Source of the DNA: Zoogloeaceae bacterium
Lineage (GTDB): Bacteria; Pseudomonadota; Gammaproteobacteria; Burkholderiales; Rhodocyclaceae
NCBI GenBank assembly: GCA_031277315.1
Contig: JAITMP010000033.1
Location: 1-40,622 of the forward strand
Direction: 5' to 3'
DNA length: 40,622 nucleotides
In this document: in pieces, positions 33,990 through 40,622 of the stretch
How the letters are laid out: each line of letters begins with the position of its first letter
Position numbering within the stretch: the stretch's first letter is position 1
The notes under the pieces: generated by a model
Database searches by the model: none
What the model was told of the DNA's origin: nothing
Seen by the model: the letters and a program-made list of their open reading frames with translations, nothing else
Program-made: the position numbers and the translations under genes

Positions 33990-34322
33990 TCAAACGCAGC
34001 CGGTCGGCTTGGGCAGGCCGGCGATCTTGCACGCCTGCTTGGCCGGGCCGTAGGGGAACAGTTCGTAGAGATACTGGCTGTTGCCCTTGTCCGCGCCGAG
34101 CTTCTTGCCGATGGCCTTGGTCAGCACGCGCACGGCGGGCGCGATCTGGAATTCATTGTAATACTCGCGCAGGAAGTTGATGACTTCCCAGTGCTGCTCG
34201 CTCAGGTTGACGTTCTCCTGCTCGGCGAGAACCTTGGCGACGTCCTCGTTCCATTCGTTGAGGTCGGTCAGGTAGCCTTCCTCGTCGGTGTCGTATTGCT
34301 TGCCGTTGACTTCAATAGCCAT
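33990..34322 (-). CDS. dsrC: DsrC, sulfur-carrier protein with both redox cysteines
   Basis: A 110-residue protein that carries sulfur between DsrEFH, DsrAB and DsrMK. Its C-terminal arm is intact: QACKIAGLPKPTGCV holds C98 and the penultimate C109, the pair required for the DsrC trisulfide. The AGGAG site precedes the ATG. Two other DsrC-family proteins lacking both cysteines are encoded at 38950 and 39300, so this is the only catalytic copy in the window. Confidence 0.97.
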   Translation of the reverse strand: MAIEVNGKQYDTDEEGYLTDLNEWNEDVAKVLAEQENVNLSEQHWEVINFLREYYNEFQIAPAVRVLTKAIGKKLGADKGNSQYLYELFPYGPAKQACKIAGLPKPTGCV

Positions 34323-35460: not shown

Positions 35461-36537
35461 TCAGAAACGGATATGGGTCGAGGCGTTCAGGCTCGTGCGC
35501 GAGCCGCGCCAGTCGTCGATCAGATACTTGGTGAACGGCAGCCCGGTCTTTTCAAAGAAACGCGGCCAGCCGATGCGGTCGATCCAGTCGGCGATGCGCT
35601 CCCATGAGCGCGCGTCTTCCTTATACACGCGCAGGATGTTTTTGACCACGGCGGCGACTTCCGGCCAGCGCGGGGCGTTGTTGGGCAGGCCCGCCGCGAC
35701 CATTTTCATGAACTGCGGCTTCATGCGGGCATTGGAGTTCTTGCCGCCGACCCAGATCGCCAGCTTGGAGTGCTCGGGATCGTTGATCTGCATCGGCGGG
35801 CAGGGCGGGAAGCAGGCGCCGCAGCAGACGCATTTTTTCTCGTCGACTTCCAGCGAGGGCTTGCCGTTGACCAGCGCCGGGCGGATCGCCGCCACCGGGC
35901 AGCGGGCGACGACGGCCGGCCGCTCGCAGACGTTGGCGACCAGATCGTGGTTGATCTTCGGCGGCTTGGTGTGCTGGATGACGATGGCAATGTCGGCCTG
36001 ACCGCCGCAGTTGATCTCGCAGCAGGAGGTGGACAGGCGCACGCGGTTCGGCATCTCCTCGGCCTTGAACTCCGTATAGAGTTCATCCATGAGGGATTTC
36101 ACCACGCCGGAGGCGTCGGTGCCGGGGATGTCGCAGTGCAGCCAGCCCTGCGTGTGGGCGATCATCGACACCGAGTTGCCGGTGCCGCCGACCGGGAAGC
36201 CGTGCTTTTCCAGCGCGGCGACGAGCGGCGCCACCTTGCCTTCGTCGGCGACCATGAATTCGATGTTGCTGCGGGTGGTGAAGCGGACGTGCTTGTCGGC
36301 GAACTGGTCGGCGATGTCGCACAGCTTGCGGATGGTGTGGACATCCATCTGCCGCTGCGTGCCGGCGCGCACCGTCCATATCTCGTCGCCGGAGTGCGCG
36401 ACGTGGCGCAGCACGCCGGGCCGGGGCCGGTCGTGGTATTTCCAGTTGCCGTAGTTTTTCCGCATGGTCGGGTGCAGGTACTGCATGTGATCCGGCACGC
36501 CGCACTCGACCGGCTTGCGCATTTGAGCTTGCGACAT
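35461..36537 (-). CDS. dsrB: DsrB, dissimilatory sulfite reductase beta subunit
   Basis: A 358-residue subunit of the siroheme/iron-sulfur enzyme. Cluster-related cysteines are seen in RLSTSCCEINCGGQADIAI (C172/C173/C177) and at C135 (LHCDIPGTD); a ferredoxin domain has CVCCGACFPPCPP (236-246). SNIEFMV and GWLHCDIPGTDASGVVKSLM are typical of DsrB. A GGAG site precedes the ATG. With DsrL and DsrEFH present and DsrD absent, it belongs to the reverse-acting type. Confidence 0.96.
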   Translation of the reverse strand: MSQAQMRKPVECGVPDHMQYLHPTMRKNYGNWKYHDRPRPGVLRHVAHSGDEIWTVRAGTQRQMDVHTIRKLCDIADQFADKHVRFTTRSNIEFMVADEGKVAPLVAALEKHGFPVGGTGNSVSMIAHTQGWLHCDIPGTDASGVVKSLMDELYTEFKAEEMPNRVRLSTSCCEINCGGQADIAIVIQHTKPPKINHDLVANVCERPAVVARCPVAAIRPALVNGKPSLEVDEKKCVCCGACFPPCPPMQINDPEHSKLAIWVGGKNSNARMKPQFMKMVAAGLPNNAPRWPEVAAVVKNILRVYKEDARSWERIADWIDRIGWPRFFEKTGLPFTKYLIDDWRGSRTSLNASTHIRF

Positions 36538-36564
36538 GATATGTCTCCGTCGTGTTTGCGGTTG

Positions 36565-37860
36565 TTAAGCGGCGGCCTGTTTGGCCTTCATCTTGGCGAC
36601 TTCCTCGTCCCAGCCGTCCATGCGGACGTAGGGGTTGGTGCGCGGGGTCGACACCATGCGCGGATCGATGTCGACCTCGATGCCTTCGAGGAAGTTGACG
36701 ATGCCGATGCGTTCGATCATCTCGCCGGTGCGCTCGTGTTCGAGGGCGTTCTCGGCGAAGAAATCGACGATGCGCTTGCCCAGATCGAGCAGGGCGGCGT
36801 AATCATCGTCGGTCTTCAGCGGCATGAAGGGCACGACGACGGTGCCCATCAGGTCGCCGATCTTCAGGGTGCGCTTGCCGCCGACGAGAATCGTGGCGCC
36901 GCGATCCTTGCCCGGCGCCAGCGCGCCAGTCATGACGTTGATGCAGTGCATGCAGCGCACGCAATCCTTGTTGTCGATCTCCAGCGCCTCGGTTCCATTC
37001 ACCGCCACGCTGGAAATGTGCGCGCCCTTGGCGACGGCGCCGACCGGCTTCAACTGGATGGCGCGGGTCGGGCAGCGGCTGACGACATCGTTTACCAGTT
37101 CGGTCATGCCGTGCTTGGCGACCCATTTTTTCGCCAGCGCCTCGTCGGTCTGGATGTTGTCGCGCCAGGTGCCGATGATCGCCATGTCGGAACGCTGGAT
37201 GGCGTTCATGCAGTCGTTCGGGCAGCCGGAGAACTTGAACTTGAACTTGTAGGGCAGGGCCGGGCGGTGAATGTCGTCGAGGAACGCATTCACGATGGTG
37301 CGCAGGCCCTTGCCTTCGTCGTAGCAGGATTGCTCGCAGCGGGCGTGGCCGACGCAGGCCATCGAGGTGCGCACGGCGGGGCCGGCGCCGCCCAGATCGA
37401 AGCCGAGTTCGTTGATCTCGTCAAACGCCTTCTGCACGTTTTCGGTGGTGCAGCCCTGGAACATGATGTCGCCGGACTGGCCGTGCAGGGCGATCAGGCC
37501 GGAGCCGTGCTTCTCCCAGATGTCGCAGAACTTGCGCAGGATGTCGGTGTTGTAGTGCATGCCGGCGGGGGGCATGACGCGCAGGGTGTGGAATTCCGTC
37601 GCGTCCTTGAAGACCGGCTGTTCCGTGTCGTCCTTGATTTCGGTGAAGCGGGGAATGACGCCGCCGCCGTAGCCGAAAACGCCGACCGTGCCGCCTTTCC
37701 AGTAGCCCTTGCGGGTTTGATAAGAGTGTTCGAGATGGCCGAGCAGATCGACCATGTAATCCTTTTCCTTCGCCAGCCGCTTCAGGCCGGTGACGAAGCT
37801 GGGCCAGGGGCCGGATTCCAGTTGATCGAGGTTCGGCGTTGCATGTGGTTTCTTCGCCAT
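36565..37860 (-). CDS. dsrA: DsrA, dissimilatory sulfite reductase alpha subunit
   Basis: A 431-residue catalytic subunit that binds siroheme amide. Cluster/siroheme cysteines are C169 and C175 (ACVGHARCEQSC) and C213/C217 (FSGCPNDCMNA), the classic DsrA pairs. An inserted ferredoxin domain has C300/C303/C306 (CVRCMHCINV). GDIMFQGCTTENVQ and the RFTEIKDD region agree with family members. A GGAG site precedes the ATG. It is the first gene of the minus-strand dsr operon; a 248-base divergent interval separates it from the accessory genes. Confidence 0.97.
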   Translation of the reverse strand: MAKKPHATPNLDQLESGPWPSFVTGLKRLAKEKDYMVDLLGHLEHSYQTRKGYWKGGTVGVFGYGGGVIPRFTEIKDDTEQPVFKDATEFHTLRVMPPAGMHYNTDILRKFCDIWEKHGSGLIALHGQSGDIMFQGCTTENVQKAFDEINELGFDLGGAGPAVRTSMACVGHARCEQSCYDEGKGLRTIVNAFLDDIHRPALPYKFKFKFSGCPNDCMNAIQRSDMAIIGTWRDNIQTDEALAKKWVAKHGMTELVNDVVSRCPTRAIQLKPVGAVAKGAHISSVAVNGTEALEIDNKDCVRCMHCINVMTGALAPGKDRGATILVGGKRTLKIGDLMGTVVVPFMPLKTDDDYAALLDLGKRIVDFFAENALEHERTGEMIERIGIVNFLEGIEVDIDPRMVSTPRTNPYVRMDGWDEEVAKMKAKQAAA

Positions 37861-37988
37861 GATTTTGTCTCCGGTGCCAGTGAGGGATCGGCATCGCCGG
37901 GCGCCCGCCCGGCAATGAAACCGTCCGTCGTCTATAAGTCGATGCCGATACTACGCATGCTGCACTGCGATCAGCCATAACCCCCGCA

Positions 37989-38029
37989 GGGTATCGGCGC
38001 TCTCCAATAGGGGTAGAGGCGACCTACCC
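37989..38029. promoter_or_regulatory. Candidate operator in the dsrA divergent intergenic region
   Basis: The 248-base interval between dsrA and the plus-strand accessory genes holds a perfect 6-bp inverted repeat GGGTAG-N7-CTACCC (38011-38029) and a further GGGTA half-site just to the left (AGGGTATCG, near 37989-37997). No clear -10/-35 pair is seen on either strand. The site is suited to controlling both directions. Confidence 0.35.
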
Positions 38030-38108
38030 GAAGGGAGTATGCTGCGACACGCCATGCCGGTGATAGGCGGCGCCGGGGCAGCTTGGCATATTTCCAACAG
38101 GCGGATTT

Positions 38109-38336
38109 ATGGATGAAAAAGAGAAGTTGACCCGGCTCGACAAGTTCACCGCGCCGATCTGGGGACAGGAAATCGAATTGCAGCAGGTCGAATATCTGGC
38201 CGGCGGCACGCCGATGCTGCGTTTGCGCATCCGCGAGAAAAAACGCTTCACCATTTTCGACATCGACGCTCAAACTGCCGCCCGCTGGGGCCAGACCATG
38301 CTGGACTGGGCCGCGAACGGGGACAAGCCGGCATGA
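38109..38336 (+). CDS. Small conserved-looking protein of unknown function, dsr-linked
   Basis: A 75-residue soluble protein, divergent from dsrA. Beta-rich with a central YLAGGTPMLRLRIREKKRFTIFDIDAQTAARW. No cysteine and no membrane segment. An AGGCGG site is 4 bases before the ATG. I do not recognise a named domain with confidence. The 3' end, including the stop, is part of a 24-bp direct duplication (38322-38366), so the current C-terminus may be recently set. Context implies a role tied to sulfur oxidation, not read from the sequence. Confidence 0.7.
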   Translation: MDEKEKLTRLDKFTAPIWGQEIELQQVEYLAGGTPMLRLRIREKKRFTIFDIDAQTAARWGQTMLDWAANGDKPA

Positions 38337-38399
38337 GCCGGGGGAGACAAACCGGCATGAGCCGGGCGGCCACGGCTTTGCGCGCAACGGCTTTGCGCG
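38322..38399. repeat. 24-bp and 15-bp direct duplications between accessory genes
   Basis: The 21-base segments 38322-38342 and 38346-38366 differ at one base (period 24, eight codons, both containing the same GCATGA stop). Next to them ACGGCTTTGCGCG occurs twice (38372-38384 and 38387-38399, period 15). Slippage-type duplications. Confidence 0.8.
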
Positions 38400-38433
38400 A
38401 CGCCACTTTATTACGCGAAAGGAGAACGCGCCC

Positions 38434-38928
38434 ATGAACCGGGAGACGAACGCCAATCCCACCGTTACCCTCGACATGAGCGGTCTGTCCTGTCCGGCGC
38501 CGCTGATGGGCGCCAAGCGGATCGTGAACGACATCGAGCCGGGCCAATCCCTGCTCCTGATTTCCGATTGCCCCGGCACCGCCGACGACCTGTTCGCCTG
38601 GTCGCGCCAGACCGGCAACGAGGTCACGGTGAAGAACAAGATGGCCGATGACCGCACCGCCTATCTGATTACCCGCAGCCGCGGCCGCAAAACCGCGCCG
38701 AAAGCCAACGTCACGCTCGACATGCGCGGCACGTATTGCCCCGGCCCCATCATCGAGGCGAAGAAGATGCTCGACGGCATGCGCGCCGGCGAAATCCTGC
38801 TGCTGATAAGCAACTGCCCCGGCACGCCCGCCGATGTCGATGCCTGGGTCAGGAACACCACGCTGGAACTGGTCGAGCGCTTCGAGATCGCGCCCGGCAC
38901 GTTCGAGTTTTATCTGCGTAAGAATTGA
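38434..38928 (+). CDS. Tandem TusA (double sulfur-carrier domain) protein
   Basis: A 164-residue fusion of two TusA/SirA domains. Each has the sulfur-binding cysteine in its CPxP motif, C20 (GLSCPAPLMGAKR) and C102 (GTYCPGPIIEAKK), and a second Cys in a LLISDCPGT / LLISNCPGT loop (C46 and C128). TusA domains transfer persulfide sulfur from rhodanese or IscS-type donors toward DsrE. A GGAG site precedes the ATG. Two fused copies could carry two sulfurs or bind two partners. It starts a three-gene run with two DsrC paralogues, divergent from dsrA. Confidence 0.93.
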   Translation: MNRETNANPTVTLDMSGLSCPAPLMGAKRIVNDIEPGQSLLLISDCPGTADDLFAWSRQTGNEVTVKNKMADDRTAYLITRSRGRKTAPKANVTLDMRGTYCPGPIIEAKKMLDGMRAGEILLLISNCPGTPADVDAWVRNTTLELVERFEIAPGTFEFYLRKN

Positions 38929-38949
38929 CCCGGAAAGAAGGAGGCAGTC

Positions 38950-39282
38950 ATGGGTTACATCATCAATGGCGAAGAGAAGGAAACCGATGCCGACGGCTAT
39001 CTGCTGGAGCCGGATTTGAGCGACGAAGCGGCGCAAGCCATCGCCGCCGCCGAGGGGCTTGCGCTGACCGACGCGCACTGGACGGTCATCCGCTATTTCC
39101 GCGACAAATACCGCGAGGACGGCCAGACGCCGAACTTCCGCCATTTCATGAAAGACATGGCGGAGCAGATGCCGGGCGCGGACGCCAAGCTGATGTACGA
39201 TCTGTTCCCGAAAGACGGCCCCGCCAAGCAGGCGGTGAAAATCGCCGGCCTGCCCAAGCCTTTCGGCAAGGGCGGTTACTAA
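38950..39282 (+). CDS. DsrC-family paralogue lacking both redox cysteines (RspA-type), copy 1
   Basis: A 110-residue DsrC fold (INGEEKETDADGYL, AHWTVIRYFRDKYRE, AGLPKP). In the C-terminal arm the DsrC Cys98 position is V96 (QAVKIAGLPKPFGKGGY) and the Cys109 position is K107, followed by a GGY extension. There is no Cys in the protein. It cannot carry sulfur like DsrC; family members without these cysteines have been called RspA and considered regulatory. A GGAGG-like site (GAAGGAGG) precedes the ATG. Confidence 0.93.
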   Translation: MGYIINGEEKETDADGYLLEPDLSDEAAQAIAAAEGLALTDAHWTVIRYFRDKYREDGQTPNFRHFMKDMAEQMPGADAKLMYDLFPKDGPAKQAVKIAGLPKPFGKGGY

Positions 39283-39299
39283 GCGCAAGGAGATGCAAA

Positions 39300-39665
39300 A
39301 TGGGAGACGCCTACCGCGACACCGCCGCGCGCCGGATGAGCGTCGGCGGACGGCAGATTCCGGTCGATTCTGAAGGCTACCTGATCGACCTCGACGACTG
39401 GTCGGAAGACTTCGCCCGCACCCTGGCGAAGGAAGAGGGCCTCGACCTGACCGACGAGCACTGGCAGGTGATCCGCTTCATCCGCGACTACCATCACGCG
39501 CATCGCGTCCAGCCGCAAGTGCGCGCCATGATCGCCCACTTCACCGCGCAATGGGGCGCGGAAAAAGGCAGCAATCATTATCTGCATGAAATTTTCCCGC
39601 GCGGCGGCCCGCAGAAACAAGGCAATCGCCTCGCCGGCATCCGCCGCACGAAAGGCGAACATTAA
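39300..39665 (+). CDS. DsrC-family paralogue lacking both redox cysteines (RspA-type), copy 2
   Basis: A 121-residue DsrC-family protein with a ~10-residue N-terminal extension before the VGGRQIPVDSEGYLIDLDDW segment, then EHWQVIRFIRDYHHAHRVQPQVRAM. The C-terminal arm has the same length as in DsrC, but the two cysteine positions are N109 and E120 (QGNRLAGIRRTKGEH). No Cys at all. The start at 39300 has an AAGGAG site; an inner ATG (39336) is the alternative. It is closer to canonical DsrC in its core than copy 1 is, which suggests separate origins rather than a recent duplication. Confidence 0.92.
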   Translation: MGDAYRDTAARRMSVGGRQIPVDSEGYLIDLDDWSEDFARTLAKEEGLDLTDEHWQVIRFIRDYHHAHRVQPQVRAMIAHFTAQWGAEKGSNHYLHEIFPRGGPQKQGNRLAGIRRTKGEH

Positions 39666-39701
39666 AACGCCGGTCGCCGTGGTTTCGGGGCAGGCGCGCT
39701 G

Positions 39702-40307
39702 ATGGCCGTCCGCATCAGAAACCGCTTTCACGCCGCCGGCCGCGCGCGCGAGCCGGCGGAACTGGCCAGCGTCCTCGCCATGCTGTCCTGGAAACTCGCC
39801 GTCGCGTCGATCAAGCAGATGCGCGAAGCCGGCTTTGACATCGACCTCGGCCAGCCGTACTTCGACTACATCGTCGAGACGATGGCTTTCCATGCCCACT
39901 ACGCCGACCGTCTCGCCTACGCGCAACTGACGCCGGAACAACGCGGCGCATTCACCGCCGCGCTGGCCCGGCGCATGGCCGAAATCATTGAAGACAACGC
40001 CGACATGCTGCCCGCCGCGCCCGCGCCCGGCGCTTGCCGCCGGCATTGCCTCTCTGTTTTCAATGCCGCCGGCGCCGATTACGCCGCCTATGGCTGTGAG
40101 GGCTGCGATGGCGACGGTGGTGACGGTGGCGCGGAGCCGGATTTCGGCTTCCGCCGCGCTTATGCGCTACGCCTGCGCGAGAGCATGCCGGAGAAAGACA
40201 AAGCCTGGATATACGACCAAGTCATGGAAATCGAAGCGCCGGAAAGCGCCCGCGCCATAGGCAAAACCCTCGCCGGACTTTTCAGCGCAGCGCCTGAACA
40301 GGCGTGA
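39702..40307 (+). CDS. Unknown 201-residue protein with two cysteine pairs
   Basis: A soluble, largely helical protein. Residues 20-100 are helix-rich (ASVLAMLSWKLAVASIKQM, AFHAHYADRLAYAQLTPE). A central segment has cysteines C112/C116 (CRRHC) and C132/C135 (CEGC) around a Gly/Asp run (CDGDGGDGG), which could bind a metal or cluster, or act as redox thiols. The C-terminal 50 residues are charged helices. I do not recognise the family. It is last in the accessory run divergent from dsrA and ends just before a possible hairpin. Confidence 0.7.
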   Translation: MAVRIRNRFHAAGRAREPAELASVLAMLSWKLAVASIKQMREAGFDIDLGQPYFDYIVETMAFHAHYADRLAYAQLTPEQRGAFTAALARRMAEIIEDNADMLPAAPAPGACRRHCLSVFNAAGADYAAYGCEGCDGDGGDGGAEPDFGFRRAYALRLRESMPEKDKAWIYDQVMEIEAPESARAIGKTLAGLFSAAPEQA

Positions 40308-40321
40308 TTCGCGCTGGCGCA

Positions 40322-40355
40322 CGCCGCCTGCGCATGCAGTGCTTCGCATGCGGCG
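40322..40355. terminator. Possible hairpin between convergent genes
   Basis: CGCCGC (40322-40327) and GCGGCG (40350-40355) enclose an inner GCATGC pair, separated from the flanking genes by 15 bases. A short TTTT follows on the plus side but not immediately, so factor-independent termination is uncertain. Confidence 0.35.
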
Positions 40356-40370
40356 AACGCTTTTACTTCC

Positions 40371-40622
40371 TCACCAATCCCACCTTACGCCTGCCTTGAC
40401 GCCGTAATCGTGCCGATTGCCGTTGAAGGCTGTCCGGTAGAGGCCGGAGAGGAAGAAAGAAGTTCCCTTCGTTGCCTGCGACTCAATCCCCCCGGCCAGC
40501 TCAAAGCTGCCGCCCTCCGACTCAAAAGGAAAACCCACATCCCCTTGCGCCGAAGAGAAATACGTCACCGGCCTGTTCGTCCACACATGACGCAGACTGG
40601 GCCGTATCCAGGCCGTGGCAAG
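40371..40622 (-). CDS. C-terminal beta-barrel fragment, autotransporter-like (5' truncated)
   Basis: The frame is open to the window edge on the minus strand, giving the last ~83 residues of a larger protein. The sequence shows alternating beta strands (ATAWIRPSLRHVWTNRPVTYF, FFLSGLYRTAF) and ends GVKAGVRWDW, with the C-terminal aromatic residue used for outer-membrane insertion. This fits an autotransporter barrel domain. The passenger lies outside the window. Confidence 0.7.
   Translation of the reverse strand, partial: LATAWIRPSLRHVWTNRPVTYFSSAQGDVGFPFESEGGSFELAGGIESQATKGTSFFLSGLYRTAFNGNRHDYGVKAGVRWDW

Follow-up and report, generated by a model that had tools for sequence, protein, structure and literature searches.

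DsrC-family proteins without sulfur-binding cysteines in a conserved gene module opposite dsrA of a Zoogloeaceae bacterium

What might be the role of DsrC-family proteins in which the sulfur-binding cysteines are replaced and which are encoded opposite dsrA? This question is raised by contig JAITMP010000033.1 (assembly GCA_031277315.1) of a Zoogloeaceae bacterium, of which positions 1 to 40,622, a stretch of 40,622 nucleotides called the window throughout, were analysed. According to passages of two studies, DsrEFH passes a persulfide to the penultimate cysteine of DsrC, which offers it to DsrAB (PMC3397948; PMC6397845). Opposite the dsr genes of the window lie five plus-strand genes, among them two for DsrC paralogues. 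They represent the form that a conserved accessory module of dsr clusters takes in this organism, and the module is probably a real, uncharacterised part of the pathway. The most economical reading of the first paralogue, held tentatively and falling short of an even chance, is that of a sulfur-blind DsrC mimic that would dock on a DsrC partner, probably DsrAB, and tune sulfur flux. The features on which the analysis is based are the following.

38109..38336, plus strand: gene for a DUF6967 protein of 75 amino acids (PF22295, 102.6 bits; Pfam)
38434..38928, plus strand: tandem TusA gene, 164 amino acids (PF01206, 120.3 bits in two stretches; Pfam)
38950..39282, plus strand: first DsrC paralogue ("KGGY" clade, our own name), 110 amino acids (PF04358, 103.6 bits)
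39300..39665, plus strand: second DsrC paralogue ("TKGEH" clade, our own name), 121 amino acids (PF04358, 118.7 bits)
39702..40307, plus strand: conserved helical protein, 201 amino acids, no known family, modelled as all-helical
36565..37860, minus strand: dsrA, with which the dsr run on the opposite strand begins (TIGR02064, 522.9 bits versus a cut-off of 392.85)
33990..34322, minus strand: canonical dsrC, the reference copy with Cys98 and Cys109 (PF04358, 167 bits)
37861..38108, no strand: divergent dsrA/DUF6967 promoter region (DNA alignment and repeat search)
38337..38433: site of a Cas6-family gene (about 199 amino acids) in most relatives, 97 bases only in the window

A gene module tied to dsrA

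Both its distribution among genomes and its location link the module to dsrA. In a sample of 250 genomes drawn evenly across the order of the window organism, dsrA (counted as present at E ≤ 1e-40) is found in 51 genomes, and DUF6967 is encoded in 44 of these 51 and in none of the 199 dsrA-negative ones. The profile of the first paralogue scores at least 159.9 bits in 46 of the 250 genomes, all 46 being among the dsrA-positive ones, and 45 of these 46 copies adjoin dsrA; at E ≤ 1e-28 this profile finds no copy in the 199 dsrA-negative genomes, weaker copies not having been looked for. From each DUF6967 genome of the order besides that of the window one locus was fetched, and in all 43 loci dsrA lies on the strand opposite to the module, with the first paralogue present in 40, a Cas6-family gene in 40, and the helical protein in 42. 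The original prediction, made from the letters of the window, had proposed that the genes form a unit with a link to dsr and had named their absence from dsr surroundings elsewhere as one half of the outcome that would speak against it; the 43 loci bear out the proposal, each of them having dsrA opposite.

Additional loci extend this pattern. Four more dsrA-positive genomes without a DUF6967 match (L165-L168) carry the Cas6-family gene, the first paralogue, a rhodanese, and the helical protein beside dsrA, and in G606, which has another dsrA type, a Cas6-family gene, an RKGGY-tailed DsrC, TusA-TusA, and the helical protein are located opposite dsrA (L171). A search with the first paralogue led to 21 loci, one from Gammaproteobacteria and 20 from close relatives (L004-L023) whose record titles name Rhodocyclaceae or Rhodocyclales, Betaproteobacteria, Candidatus Desulfobacillus, Sulfuritalea, Ferrovum or Ferrovaceae. 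Of these 20 loci, 16 contain dsrA, 16 TusA, and 17 DUF6967, while the helical protein and the Cas6-family gene are each present in 19; in L010, the first paralogue is the sole module gene among those sought. For the 67 loci compared, window included, presence means a phmmer match at E ≤ 1e-5 to a few references within the locus, irrespective of position, and these calls missed DUF6967 in L102 and L105, where the Pfam profile matched. In a sample of 369 genomes of the class, DUF6967 is encoded in seven and dsrA lies above cut-off in 112; three genomes outside the order (G014, G033, and G061) possess DUF6967 and the Cas6-family gene beside dsrA, two of them also the helical protein. As dozens of genomes have these genes in the same setting, chance is no explanation for the module.

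Within the window, all five plus-strand open reading frames that had been predicted opposite dsrA are in place, and the gaps between them of 97, 21, 17, and 36 bases, as calculated from the coordinates, suggest a spacing as in an operon. The second DsrC paralogue is read here from the ATG at 39300; a mechanical list of open reading frames has a longer frame from 38925. On the minus strand, dsrA, E, F, H, and C match the NCBIfam models of those genes or of their Tus counterparts, and the frame at 35461-36537, between the minus-strand dsr genes, is taken as dsrB by our own reading. The genome itself (2.4 Mb, 98.4% complete) has three DsrC-family matches, all of them inside the window.

The two DsrC-family proteins of the module

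Both paralogues of the window lie within the DsrC/TusE family (PF04358, 103.6 and 118.7 bits versus 24.9; TIGR03342, 87.9 and 107.6 bits versus 53.5), and the best PDB matches of the DsrC-family proteins are solved DsrC structures. Neither is DsrC proper, both C-terminal cysteines being replaced, and neither is TusE, as the penultimate cysteine is gone and the equivalog NF008562 is matched with 86.0 and 90.8 bits versus 191. A plasmid search yields 15 records that are 40-47% identical, the annotated ones as tusE. When aligned to the canonical DsrC of the window, the first paralogue shows V at the Cys98 column and K at the Cys109 column, and the second shows N and E and ends in the tail GGPQKQGNRLAGIRRTKGEH; neither contains any cysteine, which confirms the replacements and the cysteine-free state described at the outset. 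That description holds for the window but not for the first paralogue as a whole, as 6 of the 61 loci with a first paralogue keep the upstream cysteine (A 28, V 26, C 6, P 1 at this column), and the last 110 residues are devoid of cysteine in 46 of the 61. At the column of the penultimate cysteine, a lysine occurs in 61 of 61 loci, embedded in a GK[GA]GY tail. With lysine in place of the penultimate cysteine, a DsrC copy has no residue at this column to which sulfur could be bound, yet docking might still occur.

Compared with the canonical DsrC of the same locus, the first paralogue is 77% identical in the arm versus 36% in the body, the arm being higher in 50 of 50 loci, and for the second paralogue the corresponding identities are 0.44 and 0.39; this comparison took in just the loci with both proteins, i.e., 50 for the first and seven for the second paralogue. 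In the alignment behind the column counts, 57 of 59 canonical DsrC rows were counted (two were too short), and two of the 57 are other DsrC types caught by their label. Thirteen other cysteine-poor relatives, compared with the DsrC of the window and not with that of their own genome, have arms that are 44-62% and bodies that are 35-43% identical, among them eight rows of the WSTG type with arm identities of 0.44-0.56 and one TKGEH row with 0.50. Median dN/dS amounts to 0.20 for the first paralogue (45 pairs), 0.18 for the second (36 pairs), and 0.14 for canonical DsrC (21 pairs), in a set of the window plus at most nine near relatives, from which L016, L017, and L019 are missing for canonical DsrC and L008 for the second paralogue.

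In a tree built on a chosen subset of 65 rows, the 22 sampled first-paralogue rows, four RKGGY-tailed members included, form one clade (support 100/99), and 11 rows form the second-paralogue clade (support 100/99), separate from the first. The second paralogue has a different history from its neighbour, because it belongs to this separate clade and has relatives in other families of the class, some of them beside narJ/narI-like or DmsB-like genes. Among the 67 loci it is present in 10, i.e., the window and nine close relatives, and its last nine residues are identical in all 10. In the class sample, its profile reaches at least 163 bits in 21 of 369 genomes, of which 20 have a strong dsrA match (partial in two), G186 being the one without. 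Twenty short loci around relatives outside the window (L175-L194) include a narJ-related open reading frame in six cases, a narI-related one in seven, and in five an open reading frame whose start matches DmsB-like proteins below curated cut-offs, as judged from one representative of each kind. The DmsB-like reading frame may be SoeB; soeABC is present in all dsr-positive sulfur oxidisers compared, according to part of PMC6397845. To regard the two DsrC paralogues as a functional pair was considered and not kept, given their separate clades and the relatives of the second in other families of the class.

Other DsrC types occur in some loci. In L103 (8061-8390), a third cysteine-poor type (tail WSTG, upstream cysteine kept) lies between DUF6967 and TusA-TusA, in the place of the first paralogue. 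A further type, with a tail ending in FGSVA or FGATA, is encoded in L171 (2853-3221), L100 (6027), and L163, near module genes in L171 and L100.

Companion genes and possible functions of the module

The DsrC-like arm, the fixed lysine, and the tie to dsrA make the sulfur-blind mimic the most economical reading of the first paralogue. Its arm would insert where DsrC itself meets a partner, with the DsrAB cleft as the likeliest place and DsrEFH or DsrK as alternatives, and the docked protein, which could neither accept nor deliver a persulfide, would gate or stabilise the partner when loaded DsrC is scarce. TusA or the rhodanese protein might supply or sense sulfane sulfur, DUF6967 and the helical protein might help in control, and the second paralogue would come from a distinct family, added to the module in this lineage and having a role of its own, probably docking. 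The initial suggestion of decoys at docking sites gains indirect support from the first paralogue, whose arm is still DsrC-like while its body diverges, but its extension to both paralogues as a pair with one job finds no such backing in their separate clades.

Several observations weigh against such a mimic. In canonical DsrC, too, conservation is highest in the arm (mean entropy 0.25, versus 0.72 in the body), and the arm of the first paralogue is looser than the canonical one (0.59, with 1.16 in its body); the four RKGGY-tailed members of its clade, likewise compared with the DsrC of the window, show merely 0.44-0.62 arm identity. With regard to position, one first-paralogue copy (G582) is located far from dsrA, three DUF6967 loci of the order (L103, L106, and L121) are without a first paralogue there, and about 4.7 kb separates dsrA and DUF6967 in L079. 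Just 4 of the 112 class genomes with dsrA above cut-off, window included, have DUF6967, indicating that Dsr as such does not need the module; two class genomes with DUF6967 (G106 and G223) have no dsrA above cut-off, and in G207 dsrA is on another contig. A function in docking alone would not account for the Cas6-family and TauD-like neighbours. Also, the interaction of DsrC with DsrEFH in Allochromatium vinosum depends on the penultimate cysteine, according to part of PMC3397948, which speaks against DsrEFH as the partner of the first paralogue.

An action of the module at the RNA level seems unlikely. The Cas6-family protein and DUF6967 would bind RNA, sulfur carriers would sense or donate sulfur, dsr transcripts or tRNA would be controlled or modified, and the DsrC-like proteins would serve as adaptors. 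Most relatives have a gene for a protein of about 199 amino acids between DUF6967 and the next module gene, and the three examples tested score above the Cas6/Cmx6 cut-offs (TIGR02807, 128.0-140.5 bits; PF09559, 165.3-180.9 bits). A homologue is present in 62 of the 67 loci (for example L006, 4817-5413), and the glycine-rich stretch G.G..R..GCG.F is kept in at least 90% of the 62 rows; Cas6 proteins have a G-rich loop. In line with such a role, TusE acts in tRNA thiouridine synthesis of E. coli, as stated in parts of PMC3368242 and PMC3397948. However, the Cas6-family gene is absent from the window and from three of the 43 order loci, and no Rfam match at gathering scores is found in 36500-40622. 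Compared with the mimic, this explanation gives the Cas6-family and DUF6967 proteins more weight but suits the window less well. PF09559 has no match in the window's own genome, in a search in which no control genome matched either. A crude array script found no CRISPR-like array beside the Cas6-family gene in 74 loci; it flagged L103, which is without a Cas6-family gene, and this array was taken as chance.

The AlphaFold2 model of DUF6967 (pLDDT 88.6, 62 sequences) consists of four strands and a helix, and in Foldseek PUR-alpha repeats make up 17 of the 50 rows shown, more than any other group (probability up to 0.99). This resemblance would favour RNA binding, but no match attains E ≤ 0.001 (best E 0.13), and the scores of NTF2-like and cystatin-like entries come close; the likeness is weak, a lead and not a result. 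Three genomes of the class sample (L065, L066, and L067) have DUF6967 with no dsr gene beside it, and two of them have no dsrA above cut-off. The helical protein, with a homologue in 64 of the 67 loci (window included), yields an all-helical AlphaFold2 model (pLDDT 82.9, 20 sequences) that matches no PDB fold at E ≤ 0.001, the best E being 0.47. The pairs C-x3-C and C-x2-C first noticed in this protein are present, but the window alone has both among 20 aligned homologues; they carry no weight, and a conserved metal site was rejected.

A sulfur-relay module, in which TusA-TusA (or the rhodanese) would feed DsrEFH and DsrC, with the first paralogue as a scaffold organising the transfer, appears just as improbable. 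The double TusA does contain four cysteines, as had been described, and the CPxP active-site motif characteristic of TusA is present in each half; both halves also match in the organism's own genome. The view of a doubled carrier is correct for the window but describes one filling only: among the 43 order loci, TusA is found in 18, a two-domain rhodanese in 22, one locus having both and four having neither. Two examples of the rhodanese match 3-mercaptopyruvate sulfurtransferase below the curated cut-off, and in L097, L110, L113, and L165-L168 it has the first paralogue on one side and the helical protein on the other; in the window, TusA-TusA stands beside the paralogue. A sulfurtransferase-family gene, TusA-TusA here and the two-domain rhodanese elsewhere, usually accompanies the module. 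Elsewhere in the genome, a single TusA (C40, 15302-15511; L122, L133) is the best TusA match of this genome. The relay would be consistent with TusA or rhodanese in 39 of 43 order loci and with CPxP in both TusA halves, but a DsrC without the penultimate cysteine should not accept sulfur, the cysteine dependence of the DsrC-DsrEFH interaction in A. vinosum (the same part of PMC3397948) stands against it, and 4 of 43 loci have neither sulfurtransferase.

A wider arrangement, slightly more doubtful than either of these two, would combine several of the elements above in a control system dedicated to dsr: the sulfur-blind DsrC would compete with loaded DsrC and be coupled to a nucleic-acid arm (a non-CRISPR Cas6-family protein and the PUR-like DUF6967), TusA-TusA or rhodanese would be an interchangeable sulfane-sulfur input, and a TauD-like dioxygenase a further part, so that sulfur supply would be read and dsr RNA or protein output set. 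The TauD-like gene (PF02668, two examples tested) is present in all 20 of the loci L004-L023 and in 32 of the 43 order loci, directly after the helical protein in L004, L106, and L165 (2847-3743); a search without a control found no match in the window's own genome. As judged from sequence, the window appears to hold a reduced version of the module, the Cas6-family and TauD-like genes usual in relatives not being found.

More doubtful still is a function of the DsrC paralogues as transcription regulators that would bind the divergent promoter by a putative helix-turn-helix and control both dsrA and their own operon. In PMC7787665, a putative role in the regulation of transcription is ascribed to DsrC, and the arrangement is divergent in 43 of 43 order loci. 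According to the original prediction, A. vinosum DsrC has been reported to bind DNA upstream of dsrA. In nine aligned intergenic sequences, blocks at about 37952-37972, 38022-38040, and 38048-38069 are largely invariant, if not unbroken, and an inverted repeat, GGGTAG (38011-38016) and CTACCC (38024-38029), is intact in 7 of the 9. These blocks would fit shared control of both sides, but a conserved promoter suits any regulator, and the predicted isoelectric points do not decide (the medians are 4.67 and 6.57 for the first and second paralogues, respectively, and 4.9 for canonical DsrC). That the paralogues are degenerate DsrC copies on their way out, as the loss of both cysteines might suggest, is hardly credible and was rejected on dN/dS (medians of about 0.2), and the identical last nine residues of the second paralogue (10/10), the lysine of the first (61/61), and the conserved synteny speak against it as well.

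Known relatives and meaning of the module

Cysteine-free DsrC proteins are already known. With DsrC, the window copies share the family profile, and the first paralogue keeps a DsrC-like arm, but they are without either cysteine; with TusE of tRNA thiolation they share the family profile TIGR03342, whereas TusE keeps the penultimate cysteine that is lost here. Five phage DsrC sequences have neither cysteine motif according to part of PMC8190135, and, likened by cysteine state alone, they resemble the window copies, which in contrast are chromosomal, beside dsrA, and in a conserved module. In part of PMC3368242, four extra DsrC-family genes of A. vinosum are described whose role is unsettled. 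The interpretation in the original prediction is, overall, partly supported.

Venceslau et al. are said to have used, in 2014, the name RspA for DsrC-family members without cysteines. Neither window copy has a C-terminal cysteine, 6 of 61 first-paralogue members keep the upstream one, and any likeness to RspA would be one of cysteine state. In the open-access literature searched, RspA occurs together with DsrC in just one unrelated paper, no description of the module was found, and no paper deals with DUF6967 or PF22295.

Purple sulfur bacteria possess a sulfur-trafficking cluster, rhd-tusA-dsrE2. A path from Rhd by way of TusA and DsrEFH to DsrC is stated in part of PMC6397845. The module has in common with this cluster and path that rhodanese or TusA would feed Dsr, but it differs from the cluster in its other gene content, in the tandem fusion of TusA, and in having rhodanese or TusA, seldom both.

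For the annotation of sulfur oxidisers, these results mean that a count of DsrC-family matches gives too high a number of sulfur carriers, and that genes annotated as Cas6 next to dsr probably do not belong to CRISPR systems. Encoded in most dsrA-positive and, at the thresholds used, in no dsrA-negative genomes of the order sample, the module offers a direct handle on the control of sulfur flux into reverse sulfite reductase.

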